Source of the DNA: Acetobacter cibinongensis
GTDB lineage: Bacteria > Pseudomonadota > Alphaproteobacteria > Acetobacterales > Acetobacteraceae
Length of the DNA stretch: 64,000 bases
Reading direction: 5' to 3'
Assembly (NCBI RefSeq): GCF_000963925.1
Contig: NZ_BAMV01000016.1
Location: 62,001 to 126,000, forward strand
Shown: piece after piece, positions 47,436-60,526 of the stretch
Layout: the number at the start of each line of letters is the position of its first letter
How positions within the stretch are numbered: position 1 is the first letter of the stretch
The notes under the pieces: model-generated
What the model was told of the DNA's origin: nothing
Databases searched by the model: none
What the model saw: only the letters and a program-made list of their open reading frames with translations
Translations under genes and position numbers: made by a program

Positions 47436-47561
47436 TCTTTACGTCTATCGGCCGGTTTCCGGCAGCCGGGCTACCTGACACACTCAGGTGCCAGCACGGT
47501 GTTGGCGGCCACAGGCGCGAAGGTTGTTCCATCGCGCCTGACCTGTTTTCTGGAGGTTTTC

Positions 47562-49649
47562 GTGTCCGCCAAATCCGAACTCTCAAAGATCCGTAATATC
47601 GGGATCACCGCGCATATCGACGCGGGCAAGACAACCACGACTGAGCGTATTCTGTACTACACCGGTGTGTCTCACAAAATTGGTGAAGTGCACGAAGGTA
47701 ACACCACCACTGACTACATGGCGCAGGAACGTGAACGCGGTATCACGATTACCTCCGCTGCCGTGACCTGTGAGTGGAACGACCACCGCATCAACATCAT
47801 CGACACCCCCGGACATATTGACTTCAACATTGAAGTTAACCGCTCCCTGCGCGTGCTCGATGGCGCGGTGTTCATCATTGAAGGTGTTGCTGGTGTTCAG
47901 CCGCAGTCTGAAACCAACTGGCGTCTGGCTGACCGCTACAAGGTTCCACGCATCATCTTCATCAACAAGCTGGACCGTACCGGCGCAGACTTCTACCGTG
48001 CATTCGACACGCTGAAAGAAAAGCTGGATATCGTTGCTATCCCGCTGCAGTTGCCGATTGGCGCAGAAGACCAGTTCCTCGGTGTGGTCGATCTCGTTGA
48101 GATGAAGGCCATCGTCTGGGAAGGTGGTGAACTGGGTGCAAAATTCCACGACGAAGAAATTCCGGCAGACCTGAAAGAAAAAGCTGCTGAAGCACGCCAG
48201 AACCTGATCGACACGGCTCTGTCCGTTGATGAAAAGGCAATGGAAGAATACTTCGAGAACGGTGACGTCTCCAAAGAAACACTGAAGCGCTGCATCAAAA
48301 AAGGTGCACTCACCGGTGAATTCCGTCCGGTTCTGTGTGGTACGGCGTTCAAGAACAAGGGCGTTCAGCCTCTGCTTGATGCCATTATTGACTACCTGCC
48401 AGCTCCTGATGATGTTGAAGGCATTCGTTGCGCTCCTCCGGAAGGTCAGGAAGACGACGAAACAGCACAGCCCATCATTCCGGTTGACCCGAATGGCAAG
48501 TTTGCTGGTCTGGCATTCAAAATCATCAACGACAAATACGGTACGCTTACCTTTGTGCGTGTCTACCGTGGCGTTCTGAAAACGGGTGATACCGTTCTCA
48601 ACACCACAAAAGGCCACAAGGAACGTATTGGCCGTATCTACCAGATGCATGCTGACAAGCGTGAAGAACTGAGCGAAGTTCATGCTGGTGATATTGCTGC
48701 ATTCGTTGGCCTGAAAGACAGCCAGACGGGTGATACGCTGGCTGATGCATCCGATCCGGTTGTTCTGGAACGTATGACCTTCCCGGTTCCGGTTATCGAC
48801 ATTTCTGTTGAACCGAAAACCAAAGACGCTGTGGAAAAAATGACACTGGCTCTGCAGAAGCTCGCTTCTGAAGATCCTTCCCTGCAGCTGAAAACCGACC
48901 AGGAAACAGGTCAGACCATTCTGTCCGGCATGGGCGAACTGCACCTCGACATCATCATCGACCGTCTGCGTCGTGAATATGGCGTGGATGCAAATGTTGG
49001 TGCTCCGCAGGTTGCTTACCGTGAAACCATCACGAAGCCACACACGGAAATCTACACCCACAAAAAGCAGTCTGGTGGTTCTGGTCAGTACGCTGAAGTC
49101 AAGATCTGCTTTGAACCGCTTGAGCGGAACGAAGACATCCAGTTCGAAAACAAGATTGTTGGTGGTACCGTGCCGAAGGAATATATTCCTGCGGTTGAAA
49201 AAGGTATTCGCGTTCAGTCTTCTACCGGTGTTCTGGCAGGCTTCCAGACCGTGGACTTCAAGTTCACACTGCTCGACGGTAAGTACCATGACGTTGACTC
49301 GTCCGCTCTGGCGTTCGAAATCGCGGCAAAGGCTTGCTTCCGTGAAGGTATGAAGCAGGCTGGTCCTGTTATTCTGGAACCGATCATGGACGTGGAAGTT
49401 ACCACCCCGAACGATCACGTTGGTGACGTTGTGGGTGACCTTAACCGCCGCCGTGGTATGATCCAGAGCCAGGAAACATCCGGTTCTACAGTTATGGTTC
49501 GCGCTCATGTTCCGCTGAAAGAAATGTTTGGTTACATTTCTCATCTGCGTTCCATGACGAAGGGTCGTGCATCCTTCACCATGCAGTTCCACCACTACGA
49601 TCCGGTGCCACGCAACGTGGCTGAAGAAATTGTGTCTCAGTCTAAATAA
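47562..49649 (+). CDS. fusA: elongation factor G
   Basis: This 695-residue translational GTPase moves tRNA and mRNA through the ribosome. G1 is [19 protein letters not shown], switch II is [12 protein letters not shown] with the catalytic His, and G4 is [10 protein letters not shown]. Domains II-V are present to the C-terminal [22 protein letters not shown] at 47562 preceded by TGGAGG is the clear start. Codon use is strongly biased (CTG, GAA, CGT, AAC), as for a highly expressed gene. It stands alone, without rpsL, rpsG or tuf, so it is either a relocated main copy or a second EF-G. Confidence 0.93.
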
Positions 49650-49671
49650 TTTCTTCCCAGTTCGCTGGACC

Positions 49672-49707
49672 AAAAAGAAGCCGCTCCATTTTGGGGCGGC
49701 TTTTTTT
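49672..49707. terminator. bidirectional intrinsic terminator after fusA
   Basis: AGCCGCTCC pairs with GGGGCGGCT (one G-T pair) around a short AT loop, followed by seven T on the plus strand. The CTTCTTTTT tail on the minus strand would let it end the AsmA transcript too. Confidence 0.82.
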
Positions 49708-52143: not shown

Positions 52144-54933
52144 TTATCCAAAAGCACCAATTTCATGCATAATCGCCACGCTGATCTCGTGCATCAGGTC
52201 GTAGCAGTGTTTCATGGGAATAAAGATCTGCTGACGTTCCCGCCCATAAAGGTTCTCGTCACGCAGGCCTGCCGGTTCATGAAAATCCAGTGTTGATACG
52301 GCTGTTCCGGCAGAAAAAATATGGTCCAGTTCTTCCAGTACGCCCGGAATATCAAGGCATAGGATCTGTTGCATCATGGCTTCGCGGTTAAAGCCTCCGC
52401 GCGGCATAAAGAACGGAATGTCACAGGCCAGAAGCCAGATACGTTCAATCAGCGCGATGCGTATGGCGTGGAGCGCACGCAGGCGCTCAGAGCCGTGGGG
52501 TGCGTCTTCCCACGCTTCACGCAGTGCCAGATGGTCTGCCTGTACCCGGCGGAACAGGGCGTGGAGGTCGGATGAGAAGTCGAGTTTCTCCAAGTCTCGC
52601 ATCAGGGACAGGAAAGCGGCTCTGCGCTGGCGCTGAGGGTCCCGTGTTGCGCGGTCCAGCCAGAAGCCGGGGTCCAGCAGATGGATGACGGATTTTAGAA
52701 CCCGGTCATCCGAGCAGGCGAGGGCATGGCGGGCAAAGTCCAGCGCACAATGAAAACGTGGGCTGGACGTGTTGAAGGTTTCAAATGTCTCGGGGTGGCG
52801 CAGTACGGCGGTACCCAGCCCCTGCAACGTGTTGGCGCACCAGCCTAACTGCTGAAGGATGGCATTGTTGGGAATGGCCCGGAGCTGGCTTGGGTGGCTG
52901 ATACGGGTGCGATTAGCCGATTCCGCGCTTTGCCGTGCAGGCGGCCGTGAGCCTGTACGGTCAATCAGGGCGGGGCCAAAGGCCCCCAGCAGTGCGGCGT
53001 AACCGGGGTCTTCCACCAGCCGGGTCATACCCTCCGCAATGCTGGAGAAGAAGTCTGCGGAGAAGTCAGGTTGATCATAAACGGGGTCAGATTCGGCCTG
53101 AAGGGGTGTGAACAGGTAGTCAGCAATTGTTGCTATTGTGGCCCCGGCAAGTAGCGGCGTGCCGAAGAGCAGATAGCCGTCCCCGCCCTGAAAAGCGGTT
53201 TCTTCCCGGCAAACAATGCCAGACGATGCAAATTTGGACCGGGCATGATGCGGTGACAGATAGTTGAAGCGGTCAGCGAGCCGGAAAGGGTGTGCGCCCC
53301 GTCCAATACTCTCGCCATGGGTATCAAAGAAAATCACGGTAACGTCTGTCAGTCCCCACCGGGCCAACAGGTCATGAATTTTAAGGCGCAGACGTTCAAT
53401 CAGGTTTGTTGCAGCCAACTGGCCCACATAACGCCCGGAATCGGAGTAGCCAAACTGGAAGCAGATGCGCCCCGTGCGCTGCACATAAGCCCGCCAGGCA
53501 GGGGAGCGGAGTGCTTCTTCTACAATCCGGTCACCGTTGGTCAGCGCTTCTTCCGTTTCAAAAAGGGGGGAAATTTCCAGTTTGTCGGCAACACCAAAAT
53601 ATGTGGCGGCCCATAAGGCGGCCAGCAAGGTGTAGCCGCTTTCTGTTTCGGCAATCAGGAAGCGGACAGGCGTGTCTGAATCAATATGTTTGAGAATCTG
53701 GGCCACGGTCATCATCAGACGCCCGGCGGTAGAGGGGTCCCCCATCAGGGACCCGAAATCGACCGGCACGGGCTGCACCTGTTCCAGAGCCTCGTTAATG
53801 CGGGCCAACAGGGTACGACGATGAGCCGGGTTGCCCGGCATATCCAGAATATCCAGTTTCTGCCGGACAAAGTTATGCACCTGCGCGGCGTTAAGACGGA
53901 CATGGGTATGCGCCAAGGCTAAGCCATGTGCTAGAAAACCGGCACGGGCTACGGCAAGCTGTTCCTGTTGGTCTGTCGGCGCGTTTTTAATGGCGTCCAG
54001 CAGGTCTTCATCCAGCTCTCGTGCGGAGGTCAGGGCCTGCGCATGGTGATTCACCATAACATCAGCAAAGGCCGCTACAGTGTGCGGGTCAGGTTGTGTG
54101 GGGGTGTTGGCTAATTGCTGTTCAACACAGCTTATGGCTTTGGTAAGGCGCGTTGATAAATGCGGTATGGCGTCACGGTAGTCCGCCAGTTGCTCTTGTA
54201 GGCGCTCAAGTTGCAGCAGCTTCATGCGGAGCCGTAGGCGTAGCGTATCCCACCAGCCAATGTCCGTTCGTCCGTCCGTATCGTACCCCACCCAACTAGT
54301 CGCAATAACAGGGTGCGGAGCAAGGTGCTGCCAGCTGTCAGGCCATGTTTTCCGGGCTGTGTGAATAAGCGTGGCGTTCAGGCTGTCCATGGCATCACGG
54401 GCGCGGGTGATGGCTTGTGTTGCCAGGGTAAATTCTTCGTTCAGAGTCGGGGGAGCGGCCCGGCGGTGCGTTTCAAAAAAAGGCGCGGTATCAGGCAAAA
54501 CCGGATGGGAGGCACAGTCTGCCAGTGCGGCATACACGGTATTGTTCAACGCAAAAGTAGGGTGTGCGGTAAACACCGCCGCAAACCGTGTGGGAGCTAC
54601 AGCCTGCATGAAGGCTTCAGGAGTCTGTTCTGGCAAAGCCTTGAAAAGCTGGTTCACACTTTCCTGTAGCCTGCGCTGTGTGTCGTGCGTATTTGCCCCG
54701 CCCACATAGCGGTGCAGGCGGCCCGCACGGCGCAAGAAGGCGCTGTCTCTCACAGCCTGAATTTGCAGGGACACATCCTCTACCGACAGCGCTCCATCGG
54801 CCAGGGCGCTGGCAATAACCTGTGCGGCGGCTGTAACCGGGTTGGAGGTATCGGTCGCACGCGGGCCATAAGGCGCTGTGAGCAGCGGCGTTAGGAAAGA
54901 CTGGAACTCTTCAGGAAAAGAGGAAAGGTCCAT
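52144..54933 (-). CDS. ppc: divergent phosphoenolpyruvate carboxylase family protein
   Basis: This 929-residue protein aligns over its length with PEP carboxylase but is altered at the active site. TAHPTF keeps the catalytic His124 where TAHPTE is usual. The GGDRDGNP region reads GYDTDGRTDI. YSDSxKDAG reads YSDSGRYVG, with Arg501 for the Lys. The HGRGGxxGRGG loop reads THGESIGRGA (residues 538-547), which keeps the second Arg but loses the first His and Arg. Canonical SPLFET and LRAIP are still present. An ATG at 54933 is preferred over a TTG at 54951. It may be an active variant, a regulator-insensitive branch, or have another role. Confidence 0.75.
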   Translation of the reverse strand: MDLSSFPEEFQSFLTPLLTAPYGPRATDTSNPVTAAAQVIASALADGALSVEDVSLQIQAVRDSAFLRRAGRLHRYVGGANTHDTQRRLQESVNQLFKALPEQTPEAFMQAVAPTRFAAVFTAHPTFALNNTVYAALADCASHPVLPDTAPFFETHRRAAPPTLNEEFTLATQAITRARDAMDSLNATLIHTARKTWPDSWQHLAPHPVIATSWVGYDTDGRTDIGWWDTLRLRLRMKLLQLERLQEQLADYRDAIPHLSTRLTKAISCVEQQLANTPTQPDPHTVAAFADVMVNHHAQALTSARELDEDLLDAIKNAPTDQQEQLAVARAGFLAHGLALAHTHVRLNAAQVHNFVRQKLDILDMPGNPAHRRTLLARINEALEQVQPVPVDFGSLMGDPSTAGRLMMTVAQILKHIDSDTPVRFLIAETESGYTLLAALWAATYFGVADKLEISPLFETEEALTNGDRIVEEALRSPAWRAYVQRTGRICFQFGYSDSGRYVGQLAATNLIERLRLKIHDLLARWGLTDVTVIFFDTHGESIGRGAHPFRLADRFNYLSPHHARSKFASSGIVCREETAFQGGDGYLLFGTPLLAGATIATIADYLFTPLQAESDPVYDQPDFSADFFSSIAEGMTRLVEDPGYAALLGAFGPALIDRTGSRPPARQSAESANRTRISHPSQLRAIPNNAILQQLGWCANTLQGLGTAVLRHPETFETFNTSSPRFHCALDFARHALACSDDRVLKSVIHLLDPGFWLDRATRDPQRQRRAAFLSLMRDLEKLDFSSDLHALFRRVQADHLALREAWEDAPHGSERLRALHAIRIALIERIWLLACDIPFFMPRGGFNREAMMQQILCLDIPGVLEELDHIFSAGTAVSTLDFHEPAGLRDENLYGRERQQIFIPMKHCYDLMHEISVAIMHEIGAFG

Positions 54934-55068
54934 GATGTGTCGTACCCGCAAGTTGTCATTTTTATTGTTAGGCCAGTGCCGGGGGAAACAGTTTCATGTC
55001 TTGGCGCGGGCGGCAACAACCTTCACGCACTCTTGGGGAGAGCGCTGTGGGGTGCTATCTAGTGAACC

Positions 55069-56367
55069 ATGATAGTGTACCCTGAGAGTGACGCAGAAAA
55101 AGCGGCCCGCAAAACCCTTAAACGCTACCAACGGGCAGCAACGGGGTTACTTGTGTTTATGGGAGGGCTGACTGTTGCGGGGTATGCCGCACCTGCCGCG
55201 GGCTGGGTAAAAGACGGCTTCGGGCTTGAGATGCTGCGCGCCGGCGCGCGTGCTGGCGTGGTGGGCGGTTTGGCAGACTGGTTTGCGGTTGTGGCCCTGT
55301 TCCGTCACCCCATGGGCCTGCCGATCCCACATACCGCGATTCTGCCTGCGCAGAAGGAACGACTTGGGCGTGCTTTGGGGCGTTTTGTATCCGGGCAGGT
55401 TTTTACGGAAAAAGAGGTAACACGCGTTCTGGAGCGCGTAGATATTCCCAGTTTTCTGGCCAATATGCTGGATGAGCCAGGCACTCGGGAGACAATAACG
55501 CGCTCACTGCTCTCCTCCATGCCGCAAATGCTGGACCGGTTGGAAGATGGGCGTGCCAGCGCGGCTATCAGTAAGGCGCTGCCCCATCTGGTGGGCGGAA
55601 ACAGTCTTGCCCCCATAGTGGCAAAGGCATTGCGCAGCCTTGTGGATGATGACCGGCATCAGGAAGTGCTCTCGTATTTCCTCAGCCAGATCAAAGATGG
55701 ATTGCAAGCCAAGGAAGGTGCCCTACGCGGCATTATTGAAGACCGCGTGCGGGAGCAGGGGGGACGCTTGCTTGGCTGGGCGATTGGCGGATCTATCGCG
55801 ACCCGTGTGCTGCTGGCTGCCAGCAAGGAGCTAGAGCGTGTGGACCCTCAAAATTCTACCTTGCGAGAAGGATTTACCGCATGGGTGCGCGGTCAGATTG
55901 ACCGTATAGAAACAGACCCTGAACGTGGGTCGGAAATTTCCCAGACCATCATGAGCGTCCTGTCGCATGAAAGCGTTGTGGTGTGGTGGGGCGATATCTG
56001 GCAGCGTTTCCGCCGTTTGGTGGAAGAAGATATTGAAGACCCGAACGGTCGCATAGCGTCTGTTATTCAGGAGGCAGTGGACCGTATGGCCATACAGGCC
56101 AGGCAGGACCCCGCCTTGCGTCAGAAAATTATGGATGGCGTGAGCAAGGCAACTTTCAAGGCTCTTCCTTTTATCCGTGAACAGATGGCGGATTTTATTG
56201 CCAAGGTCGTTGCCGGGTGGGACGCCGTGCAAATTGCTGAAAAACTGGAATTGCGGGTTGGGAAAGAGCTGCAATTTGTAAGGTTTAACGGCACACTTGT
56301 TGGATTCGGTGTGGGGGCGGCATTGTTTGCCGTGCTGCGGCTGCTCTTTGGCGTTAACGCACAATAG
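55069..56367 (+). CDS. DUF445 family membrane protein
   Basis: This 432-residue protein has a membrane segment near each end (GLLVFMGGLTVAGYAAPAAG and TLVGFGVGAALFAVLRLLFG) and a long helical middle. The family mark is GARAGVVGGLADWFAVVALF followed by RHPMGLPIPHTAILP. DUF445/YjiN proteins have no known function. It is divergent from ppc, and the suf operon begins about 140 bp after it. Confidence 0.85.
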   Translation: MIVYPESDAEKAARKTLKRYQRAATGLLVFMGGLTVAGYAAPAAGWVKDGFGLEMLRAGARAGVVGGLADWFAVVALFRHPMGLPIPHTAILPAQKERLGRALGRFVSGQVFTEKEVTRVLERVDIPSFLANMLDEPGTRETITRSLLSSMPQMLDRLEDGRASAAISKALPHLVGGNSLAPIVAKALRSLVDDDRHQEVLSYFLSQIKDGLQAKEGALRGIIEDRVREQGGRLLGWAIGGSIATRVLLAASKELERVDPQNSTLREGFTAWVRGQIDRIETDPERGSEISQTIMSVLSHESVVVWWGDIWQRFRRLVEEDIEDPNGRIASVIQEAVDRMAIQARQDPALRQKIMDGVSKATFKALPFIREQMADFIAKVVAGWDAVQIAEKLELRVGKELQFVRFNGTLVGFGVGAALFAVLRLLFGVNAQ

Positions 56368-56509: not shown

Positions 56510-56974
56510 ATGCTGAAACTTTCCCGGCTGGCTGACTATGCGGTCGTTATTCTTGTTAATCTTGGCGAGCAGGACGGAGTGGTCACATCCCCCGCTCTGG
56601 CCACGGAAACAGGCGTGCCAGAACCCACTGTCGCTAAAATTCTTAAAGTGCTCTCTGCCAATAAATTCGTGCTGTCTCAGCGCGGGGCCAAAGGCGGTTA
56701 CCGTCTGGCGCGCCCATTGGCGGAGATCTCGGTTGCCAGCGTTATATCTGCAATGGACGGTCGGATTGCCCTGACAGCCTGCGTGGATGGCGGAGAGTGT
56801 GATGCCGGCGTATCCTGCGGCATGTGCGGCAGTTGGGACACGATCAACAAAGCCATACGGGATACGCTTGAAGCGATCTCACTGGAGACCATGCGGCAGA
56901 ACAGTACATGCGGTTCTGCCTTCATGAAGAAAAACGTCCTGACCAGTGGCAACACACAATGTGAAGGGGCTTGA
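56510..56974 (+). CDS. sufR: SUF operon regulator, Rrf2 family
   Basis: This 154-residue Rrf2-type repressor has a winged helix (LSRLADYAVVILVNLGEQDG, then PTVAKILKVLSANKFVLSQR) and a cysteine cluster ACVDGGECDAGVSCGMCGSW that can bind an Fe-S cluster, as in the SUF-linked branch near IscR. It is the first gene of the suf operon, 3 bp before sufB, so feedback control of Fe-S assembly is likely. It is unrelated to the cyanobacterial ArsR-like SufR of the same name. Confidence 0.9.
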   Translation: MLKLSRLADYAVVILVNLGEQDGVVTSPALATETGVPEPTVAKILKVLSANKFVLSQRGAKGGYRLARPLAEISVASVISAMDGRIALTACVDGGECDAGVSCGMCGSWDTINKAIRDTLEAISLETMRQNSTCGSAFMKKNVLTSGNTQCEGA

Positions 56975-56977
56975 GCC

Positions 56978-58468
56978 ATGCCAGCAGTGACAGAAACCCG
57001 TGAAGCGGTCGAAAAACTGGGTCAATCCTCCTACAAATGGGGGTTTGAAACCGAAATTGACATGGATCTTGCCCCAAAAGGGCTGAATGAAGATACCATC
57101 CGCCTGATCTCCGCCCGGAAAGAAGAGCCTGAATGGCTTCTGGAATGGCGGTTGAGCGCCTATCGGGCCTGGCTGACAATGGCGGAACCCAAATGGGCCA
57201 AGGTGTCTTATCCTCCCATTGATTATCAAGATCTCCACTACTACGCCGCACCTAAAAAGAAGCCCGGCCCCAAGTCCCTTGAAGAAGTGGACCCTGAACT
57301 GCTGCGGACCTATGAAAAACTGGGTATTCCGCTGCATGAACAGGCTTTGCTGGCCGGGGTGGAATTGCCGGAAGGCGAGGTTGCGCGCACCCCTGTTGCT
57401 GTGGATGCGGTGTTTGACAGTGTGTCTGTTGTCACCACCTTCCGCAAAACGCTGGAAGAAGCAGGCGTTATTTTCTGCCCCATTTCCGAAGCAGTGAAAG
57501 ACCACCCGGAACTGGTGCGGAAGTATCTGGGCACCGTTGTGCCTGCCGGAGATAACTTCTACGCAGCACTCAACTCGGCCGTGTTTACGGATGGCTCATT
57601 TGTCTATGTGCCCAAGGGCGTGCGCTGCCCCATGGAGCTTTCCACCTACTTCCGCATCAACGCCCGCAATACCGGGCAGTTTGAGCGCACGCTGATTGTG
57701 GTGGAAGATGGTGCCTATGTGTCCTACCTGGAGGGCTGTACGGCCCCCATGCGGGACGAAAACCAGCTTCACGCCGCAGTGGTTGAACTGGTGGCGATGG
57801 AAGATGCGTCCATCAAATATTCTACGGTCCAGAACTGGTATCCCGGTGATGAAAACGGGCGTGGGGGTATTTACAACTTCGTGACCAAGCGCGGTGCCTG
57901 CCGTGGTGCCCGCTCCAAAATTTCATGGACACAGGTTGAGACCGGCTCGGCTATTACGTGGAAGTATCCGTCCTGCATATTGCAGGGGGAAGGCTCCGTA
58001 GGGGAATTCTATTCCGTTGCCGTGACCAACAACCATCAGCAGGCGGACACCGGCACGAAGATGATTCATATTGGGCGCAATACGCGCTCAACCATCATTG
58101 CCAAAACAATTAGTGCGGGCCAGTCAGACAGCACATATCGTGGGTTGGTGCGCGTGCTGCCCAAGGCATCCGGCGCACGTAACTTTACACAGTGCGATAG
58201 CCTTCTGATTGGGGACCAGTGCGGGGCACATACCGTGCCTTACATTGAAAACCGGAATATGGCCGCCCGTATTGAACATGAAGCCACCACGTCCAAAATA
58301 TCAGAAGACCAGCTTTTCTACTGCCGCCAGCGTGGCTTGTCGGAGGAAGATGCTGTGGGCCTGATAGTCAACGGCTTCTGCCGGGATGTGTTGAAGGAGT
58401 TGCCCATGGAATTTGCCGTGGAAGCTCAGAAATTGTTGCAGATCAGCCTTGAAGGCAGCGTAGGGTAA
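56978..58468 (+). CDS. sufB: Fe-S cluster assembly protein SufB
   Basis: This 496-residue scaffold subunit of the SufBCD complex has the beta-helical core, including [20 protein letters not shown], the [20 protein letters not shown] stretch, and the C-terminal [20 protein letters not shown]. It receives sulfur and assembles Fe-S clusters with SufC and SufD. sufC starts 13 bp later. It has the normal length. Confidence 0.96.
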
Positions 58469-58481
58469 GGAAGGGCAGAAC

Positions 58482-59252
58482 ATGACCCAGTTTTTGGAAA
58501 TTTCCGGTCTGTGTGCCCGGATTGATGCGGACGGGCAGGAAAAAGAAATCCTGCGTGGGGTGGATCTGACCATTCCACCGGGTGAGGTCCATGCCATCAT
58601 GGGGCCGAATGGCTGCGGTAAGTCCACCCTGTCCTACGTTCTGGCTGGACGGGAAGAGTATGAAGTAACTGCCGGGTCTGTGCAGTTTCATGGTCAGGAT
58701 CTGCTGGCCATGGAGCCGGAAGAACGCGCTGCGGCAGGTTTGTTTCTGGCCTTCCAGTCTCCTATTGAGTTGCCCGGCGTTAACAATGCTAACTTCCTGC
58801 GTACAGCCGTCAATGCTGTGCGGCGCGCCCGTGGGCAGGAGGAGCTTGATGCCGTTGCCTTCCTGAAGGCCGCGCGTGAGGCTGCAAAGTCCCTCTCCAT
58901 GGCGCCGGATATGCTCAAGCGTAACGTCAATGTCGGCTTCTCCGGTGGGGAAAAGAAGCGGAATGAAGTGTTGCAGATGACACTGCTTCAGCCCTCTTTT
59001 GCCATCCTGGACGAAACAGATAGTGGCCTGGACGTGGACGCCCTGCGGATTGTTGCCGAAGGTGTGAACCGCATGCGTTCCCCTGAGTTTTCTGCGCTGG
59101 TCATCACCCATCACAAACGTCTGCTCGACTACCTGAAGCCAGACCGTATTCACGTTATGGCAAAAGGGCGCATCATTCATTCTGGCGGGCCGGAACTGGC
59201 TGAGCAGATTGATACAGAAGGTTACACCCGCTTTCTTGCGGAGGCCGCGTGA
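58482..59252 (+). CDS. sufC: Fe-S assembly ATPase SufC
   Basis: This 256-residue ABC-type ATPase has Walker A GPNGCGKSTLSYVLAG, signature FSGGEKKRNEVLQM and Walker B FAILDETDSGLDVDALRIVA, followed by the switch His in VITHHKRLLDYL. It powers shape changes of the SufBCD complex and is not a transporter. Its stop overlaps the sufD GTG start (GTGA). Confidence 0.96.
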   Translation: MTQFLEISGLCARIDADGQEKEILRGVDLTIPPGEVHAIMGPNGCGKSTLSYVLAGREEYEVTAGSVQFHGQDLLAMEPEERAAAGLFLAFQSPIELPGVNNANFLRTAVNAVRRARGQEELDAVAFLKAAREAAKSLSMAPDMLKRNVNVGFSGGEKKRNEVLQMTLLQPSFAILDETDSGLDVDALRIVAEGVNRMRSPEFSALVITHHKRLLDYLKPDRIHVMAKGRIIHSGGPELAEQIDTEGYTRFLAEAA

Positions 59253-60526
59253 ACGCCATAACGAAAAATCCAAAAGCAACCTTGCAGTCGTTTGAAGCCC
59301 GTTTTGACACAATAACGGACCAGACACGCAAGGCTGCTCTGGGGGCTCTGCACCGGGTGGGTCTGCCTGACCGCCGCGTGGAAGAGTGGAAATACACTGG
59401 CCTGCGTTTCCTGACCGAAACGCCGTTTGCTGCTCCTGCACAAACGTATGATGCTGCACAGGTGCAGGCTGAACTTGATCGGCTTGGCGTTACACACGGT
59501 CCGGCAGAGGCGCTGCCGCGTCTGGTGTTTGTGAACGGCCTGTATTCTGCGGAATTTTCTCGGAAGCCCGCTTCGGCCGAGGTGTCTTTCTTTGCGCAAA
59601 CCAAGTCTTTTGGTGTGCAGGCGTGCCCTGACCGGGATCCGCTGACAGCGCTGAATACCACTTTGGCGCAGGATGGTGTGACCTTATCCGTGCCGGAAAA
59701 TGGGGATGCAGGGCATGTGCTGCTCATCTCCATAGGGCAGGCTGACGCTCCTGTGTCCTTCCATCCTCGCCATGCTGTTGCTCTGGCCGAAGGGGCTAAA
59801 CTGTCCCTTACCTGTATTCAGGCGGGGCAGGGCCGGTATCTGCATAATCCCGTTCTGGAAGTTTCCGTTGCTGCCCGTGCAGAGTTGCAGCATGTAACGG
59901 TGCAGGCAGAAAGTGATGATGCCGCCAGCCTTGCAACACTCTACGCGCAGGTGGATGAGCACGGCAGCTATAATAGCTTTGTTCTTGGCTTGGGTGCAGC
60001 GCTGGCGCGGCACGAGGTTCATGCCACACTGGCTGCGTCTCATGCACAGGTTCACGTTAACGGTGCCCAGCGCTTGCGTGCGCGTCAGCATGGTGACCTG
60101 ACCAGTGTTATCACCCATGCAGCACCGGATTGTATCTCCCGTCAGACCGTGCGCAACGTGTTGGATGGTCAGTCTCGCGGCGTGTTTCAGGGCAAGGTTC
60201 TGGTCGAACGGATTGCCCAGAAGACCGATGGCTACCAGATGAATCAGGCTCTGCTTTTGTCTGAGCAGGCTGAGATTGATGCCAAGCCCGAGCTGGAAAT
60301 CTACGCGGATGACGTCAAATGCAGCCACGGGGCAACCGTAGGCGCGTTGGATGAAGACCAGATGTTCTATCTGCGTAGCCGCGGCGTGCCGTATGCGGAA
60401 GCCCGGCAAATCCTCATTCATGCCTTTCTGGAAGAAGCGCTGGCGTTGATTCCGGATGAGACGGCGCGGGCTCTTTGCAGCCACATTATGGCCCAACGGT
60501 TTCCCGTAAGTGGGGAGGAGGCATAA
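59249..60526 (+). CDS. sufD: Fe-S cluster assembly protein SufD
   Basis: This 425-residue partner of SufB has the C-terminal beta-helix signature SRGVFQGKVLVERIAQKTDG, then DAKPELEIYADDVKCSHGAT and DEDQMFYLRSRGV. The conserved Cys in VKCSHGAT is present. It uses a GTG start overlapping sufC, and its TAA overlaps the sufS ATG, so the operon is tightly coupled. Confidence 0.95.
   Translation: MNAITKNPKATLQSFEARFDTITDQTRKAALGALHRVGLPDRRVEEWKYTGLRFLTETPFAAPAQTYDAAQVQAELDRLGVTHGPAEALPRLVFVNGLYSAEFSRKPASAEVSFFAQTKSFGVQACPDRDPLTALNTTLAQDGVTLSVPENGDAGHVLLISIGQADAPVSFHPRHAVALAEGAKLSLTCIQAGQGRYLHNPVLEVSVAARAELQHVTVQAESDDAASLATLYAQVDEHGSYNSFVLGLGAALARHEVHATLAASHAQVHVNGAQRLRARQHGDLTSVITHAAPDCISRQTVRNVLDGQSRGVFQGKVLVERIAQKTDGYQMNQALLLSEQAEIDAKPELEIYADDVKCSHGATVGALDEDQMFYLRSRGVPYAEARQILIHAFLEEALALIPDETARALCSHIMAQRFPVSGEEA

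Follow-up and report, generated by a model that had tools for sequence, protein, structure and literature searches.

Does a protein that resembles phosphoenolpyruvate (PEP) carboxylase (PEPC) and carries altered active-site loops still catalyse the PEPC reaction? The question is raised by a gene in the window, i.e. the whole 64,000-nt stretch of Acetobacter cibinongensis DNA analysed here. The sequence-only reading of this locus described an altered PEPC homologue and proposed that it either forms a distinct class or has acquired a new role. In our judgement the gene quite likely specifies a divergent PEP carboxylase that is presumably still active and has an anaplerotic role in many acetic-acid bacteria as well as in other Alphaproteobacteria.

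Gene, reading frame and predicted fold

The gene occupies 52144..54933 on the minus strand and encodes 929 aa from an ATG, a call based on the open reading frame, Pfam and the predicted fold. A TTG at 54951 provides a longer alternative (52144-54951, minus strand) of 935 aa (P0001); residues are numbered here by P0001, from which the numbers of the earlier reading differ by minus 6. The frame is intact, without an internal stop. The protein scored 68.5 bits (E 4e-19) against the Pfam family PEPcase (PF00311; curated cut-off 22.4), and the description of an altered PEPC homologue at 52144-54933 was confirmed by this score together with the open frame, the motifs and substitutions common to a subfamily. 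In contrast, the canonical equivalog model NF000584 returned 72.7 bits, far below its cut-off of 815. Since the canonical model misses the gene, the name depends on a domain match that is weak. The gene should not be filed under NF000584. Identity to E. coli PEPC is 17%, and PEPCs of solved structure were matched in a sequence search at E 3e-6 to 1.4e-5.

The gene is under purifying selection. In the four pairs tried, dN/dS was 0.08 (window versus L062, a pair with dS 1.8 and thus near saturation), 0.10, 0.04 and 0.07. A sequencing error or pseudogene was considered and rejected, because the frame is open and the same substitutions recur in relatives that are under purifying selection.

An AlphaFold2 model built from a 72-sequence alignment (mean pLDDT 86, pTM 0.90) had E. 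coli PEPC (1jqn) as its top Foldseek match (E 2.3e-18), and the 50 matches listed were all PEPCs. With VIA-align, the model superposed on maize PEPC (5vyj) with Z 29.7 over 748 residues and on 1jqn with Z 29.0 over 740; archaeal PEPC (Z 15.2) and pyruvate kinases (up to 14.0) were weaker matches. The whole chain is therefore predicted to adopt the PEPC fold. The likeness to canonical PEPC (PF00311, NF000584, E. coli Ppc) thus extends over the full length at Z 29, whereas archaeal-type PpcA (PF14010; 3odm) shares a common core of 462 residues and has a 529-residue chain, as opposed to 929 aa in the divergent protein.

Retained and altered active-site columns

Residues were compared in an alignment of 46 divergent rows (29 near and 17 distant, the most remote sharing 32% identity with the window protein), hand-picked from 160 that included duplicates, and 15 canonical rows picked from 36. 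An earlier residue table of 133 divergent and 36 canonical rows was biased, because its set had been pre-filtered on the HPT and G[YF]S[DE]S motifs. Unfiltered retrieval added 20 divergent rows, and the motif-filtered table agrees with the 46-row result. Eight columns (E. coli H138, R396, E506, D543, R587, R699, R703 and R713) were identical in 46/46 divergent and 15/15 canonical rows, and 38 columns were common to both groups when one exception was tolerated on the divergent side. In E. coli PEPC, H138, Arg587, Arg699 and Arg713 have core catalytic roles (general base, phosphate arginines), R396 is a PEP phosphate ligand, and E506 and D543 are metal ligands.

All of these positions can be followed along the minus strand. 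TAHPTF (T128-F133; 54553..54570) contains His130, the equivalent of H138; this is the catalytic histidine that had been reported as kept (His124 in the earlier numbering, within FTAHPTF). The same motif holds Phe133 in place of Glu141, so the proposed change from HPTE to HPTF is real and general (Phe in 46/46 divergent rows, Glu in 15/15 canonical). R352 (53896..53898; R396) and E465 (53557..53559; E506) are each kept in 46/46. In GYSDSGRYVG (53422..53451), which replaces GYSDSxKDxG and in which the change from KDAG to GRYVG had correctly been read, D504 (D543) is retained, with Arg507 standing for Lys546 and Tyr508 for Asp547. SRPPAR (52933..52950) holds R669 and R673 (R699 and R703) and LRAIP (52870..52884) holds R691 (R713), all three unchanged in 46/46, and the canonical GSR...R and RAIP motifs persist. 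The C-terminus (52147..52158) reads GAFG rather than RNTG, keeping the final Gly.

Another altered segment is the DTHGESIGRGAHP loop (53287..53325), in which the residue alignment places R551 at the R587 column. Here His545 replaces Arg581, Glu547 replaces Gly583 and His554 replaces Ala590, and the residues found after GRGGxP in the canonical enzyme are missing. An altered HGRGG loop had been claimed, read as THGES; the alteration stands (FDTHGESIGRG for FHGRGGSIGRG), but the HGRGG columns align one by one with DTHGE, and the following SIGRG, including R587, is intact. The alignment did not restore the canonical residues nearby.

These substitutions characterise the subfamily. E141F, K546R, G580T and G583E each occurred in 46/46 divergent rows and in 0/15 canonical rows, and R581H and A590H each in 45/46 and 0/15; the divergent protein also has H579D. 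K546 and R581, where the window has R507 and H545, were invariant in the 15 canonical rows. Some variation exists within the subfamily: the SDS motif reads SDA in 16/17 distant members, and Ameyamaea (L117) has HPVF.

Among W248, L504 and M538, which we take to line the CO2 pocket, the first two are kept and the M538 column is Gln in 46/46 divergent rows. Four further columns, K773, R832, N881 and K620, presumably form the aspartate/malate inhibition site of E. coli PEPC. The K773 column is Cys (C746) in the window, and Glu584 (53200..53202, minus strand) occupies the Lys620 column, which is Glu in 46/46 divergent rows and Lys in 14/15 canonical. The R832 and N881 columns are neither R nor N in the window, although two alignments place these columns differently.

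A mechanism can be proposed on this basis. The divergent enzyme would convert PEP and bicarbonate to oxaloacetate and phosphate, with the general-base, metal-ligand and phosphate-arginine positions retained in a PEPC fold. Arg507 and His545 may stand in for K546 and R581 in contacting PEP and bicarbonate, and the reaction would thus be kept with a rebuilt loop. The changed K773, K620 and probably N881 columns might remove or re-site aspartate/malate feedback, a possible difference that may matter for flux models assuming an ordinary PEPC. If the enzyme is active, it constitutes a natural experiment in which K546, R581 and the HGRGG loop, all invariant in the canonical rows, are replaceable together, and their roles would then be directly testable by loop swaps.

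Kinship, distribution and co-occurrence with other carboxylases

The comparison with canonical PEPC that the earlier reading had called for was made as a quick tree search of 52 rows without an inferred root, which included 14/17 distant rows. One fully supported branch of ~7 changes per column separated 37 divergent from 15 canonical rows, placing the two groups on opposite sides. (An earlier quick tree, also without an inferred root, left out 13 rows because of the same HPT / G[YF]S[DE]S motif filter.) Together with the low identity to the E. coli enzyme and the 72.7-bit NF000584 score, this split upholds the suggestion of a distinct class. The divergent PEPC is a real, old and conserved alphaproteobacterial subfamily of the PEPC superfamily.

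Within the order of the window's genome, 243 genomes matched, of which six were set aside as canonical PEPC cross-hits (G119, G148, G189, G210, G262 and G287). Three more (G013, G239 and G253) matched weakly, had no hit to NF000584 and were likewise excluded, leaving the divergent gene in 234/299. The 234 include an N-terminally truncated relative in the window's own genus (L023, genome G025), which recalls the ppc pseudogene of A. pasteurianus 386B. At class level 51 genomes matched, and setting aside six at 36-47 bits left 45/289. In a phylum sample searched at E 1e-30, 29/398 genomes matched, all of them the own genome, the same family or the same class, in a listing that gives no number of genomes from other classes. 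A tblastn search of plasmids returned six records, four holding most of the gene and two short (29% of the query). The top copies, in Burkholderia pyrrocinia (NZ_CP150851.1; 52%) and Methylobacterium bullatum (NZ_LR743510.1; 45%), lie on large plasmid records, which suggests horizontal transfer or mislabelled records.

A second, canonical ppc and pyc had been named as things to look for in the own genome, and neither was found: the PF00311 search gave the divergent gene alone, and no pyruvate carboxylase (PYC) scored over its cut-off. Archaeal-type PEPC (PF14010) also had no match at E 0.001 in this genome, which includes the divergent gene. ATP-dependent PEP carboxykinase (ATP-PEPCK) is present, so some oxaloacetate may be made by PEPCK there.

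Across the 299 genomes of the order, the divergent gene (234) and an over-cut-off canonical ppc (11) never overlapped (Fisher p 2.5e-8, a value that ignores kinship). PYC was found in 18/299, including two genomes that also hold the divergent gene (G132 and G240); canonical ppc or PYC was present in 27/299, with the same overlap of 2 (p 9.4e-17, again ignoring kinship). The class sample had 27 canonical and 45 divergent genomes and an overlap of 0 where 4.2 were expected (p 0.012, likewise uncorrected for kinship). This near exclusion counts in favour of a working PEPC. It counts against this reading that a second PEPC scoring 718-767 bits accompanies the divergent gene in four genomes of the order (G029, G009, G028 and G155, corresponding to loci L043-L046) and one of the class (G578). 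The second PEPC in L043 and L046 has SRGG for GRGG and ends in FGTTG.

Individual genera are informative here. In genus g11, at least 10 genomes have the divergent gene and three do not; among the latter, G034 and G165 have a canonical ppc and G201 has neither canonical ppc nor PYC. The window's genus has the gene in 34/36 genomes, and the two exceptions are G182, which has PYC, and G294, with neither. The remaining genomes with canonical ppc or PYC and without the divergent gene all belong to genera g26 and g31. Only some three or four of the replacements seem to be independent events, which weakens the argument.

A further point against a working PEPC is that the divergent gene, canonical ppc and PYC were all missing from 40/299 genomes of the order, G294 and G201 among them. 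In a search covering 76 genomes, ATP-PEPCK was found in 34 of those 40, in the window's genome and in 15/27 other sampled gene-bearing genomes. Since it is also common where the divergent gene is present, PEPCK is no clean substitute for the divergent PEPC. Six genomes (G294, G068, G111, G235, G239 and G297) lacked a full divergent PEPC, canonical PEPC, PYC and ATP-PEPCK.

Reported activity, competing explanations and gene neighbourhood

Twelve named acetic-acid bacterial genomes were picked from 80 named loci: K. xylinus (twice; we take Gluconacetobacter xylinus to be now a Komagataeibacter), K. europaeus, Novacetimonas hansenii, Gluconobacter frateurii, Gluconobacter thailandicus, Gluconacetobacter diazotrophicus, dulcium and liquefaciens, A. 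pasteurianus, Commensalibacter intestini and Asaia krungthepensis. The acetic-acid bacteria in this set include makers of cellulose and vinegar. In each of the 12 genomes PF00311 matched a single protein, with a score (42-59 bits) typical of the divergent type, and PYC was found in none of them.

PEPC activity has been assayed in this group. One report describes an assay in Gluconacetobacter xylinus (PMC4047042), and another a commercial purified 'Acetobacter' PEPC, its strain not given in the passages seen, that is inhibited by aspartate and malate (PMC5259782). By elimination, these activities would belong to the divergent subfamily. If the commercial enzyme does belong here, its inhibition fits poorly, because the inhibitor-site columns are changed. 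Two further reports count against a working PEPC. In Gluconobacter oxydans, GOX0102 is given as ppc, with low expression, and PPC may matter little in the wild type (PMC6191907). In A. pasteurianus 386B, ppc (APA386B_587) was annotated as a pseudogene with a frameshift, and malic enzyme, which is reversible, is named as another anaplerotic route (PMC6915089). GOX0102 and APA386B_587 are probably the same gene as the one studied here, since it is the sole PF00311 homologue in a different A. pasteurianus strain and in two further species of Gluconobacter. In the passages seen, both are treated as ordinary PEPC (PMC6191907, PMC6915089). Titles and the opening lines of abstracts, which covered few subscription papers, yielded no description of the divergent subfamily.

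How far do these data favour a working PEPC over other explanations? The protein could have kept PEP binding and enolate chemistry and now carry out another reaction, using CO2 as the carboxyl source, a different phosphate acceptor or a phospho-enol related to PEP. The coordinated swaps that the sampled members share at the K546, R581, E141, M538 and G583 columns are consistent with such a change, as are the loss of the stretch after GRGGxP and the length of the branch to canonical PEPC. However, the core catalytic residues are kept, no genome among the 299 combines the gene with an over-cut-off canonical ppc, and reports of PEPC activity come from a group in which the genomes tested have this homologue alone; we regard a changed reaction as improbable. 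For these same reasons, the new role put forward by the sequence-only reading is not supported. A broader proposal, that this is a third kind of PEPC, old in Alphaproteobacteria, with an independently rebuilt PEP/bicarbonate pocket (Arg at K546, His at R581, Gln at M538), and possibly with different allosteric logic and another carboxyl source or phosphate acceptor, is speculative and unlikely. Loss of K546 and R581 might instead point to a relative without catalysis that has been retained for a regulatory or structural function. Such a protein should have no need of its metal ligands and general base, yet H138, E506, D543, R396, R587, R699 and R713 are kept in 46/46 rows and dN/dS is 0.04-0.10 in the four pairs, which makes this explanation very unlikely.

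The neighbourhood offers one further reading. A DUF445 protein is encoded next to the gene and transcribed divergently from it (55069..56367, plus strand), followed by an Rrf2-type regulator, sufB, sufC and sufD (56510..60526, plus strand). Rrf2 and sufB were named by Pfam; sufC and sufD are presumed names, given by sequence and order. Among 65 loci with full 8-kb flanks, homologues were found in the flanks of 62 for DUF445 and of 61, 61, 61 and 60 for the other four, respectively, and 9 of the 12 loci listed have the window's gene order on the DUF445/suf side. The divergent PEPC might thus act with DUF445, Rrf2 and SufBCD in the assembly or control of iron-sulfur clusters, as their recurrence at 60-62 of the 65 loci would allow. 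However, the gene is transcribed divergently from these neighbours and persists where the arrangement is broken: among the 12 loci listed, suf lies on the other side in L082, rrf2-sufB is ~7 kb away in L133 and L137 has none in its flanks. We consider a role in iron-sulfur metabolism scarcely plausible, and put the DUF445-Rrf2-sufBCD vicinity down to synteny that has remained stable, not to a link in function. Elsewhere in the window, a 696-aa frame (47583-49673, minus strand) runs antisense to an elongation-factor-like gene (47499-49649) and is probably a codon-usage artefact.
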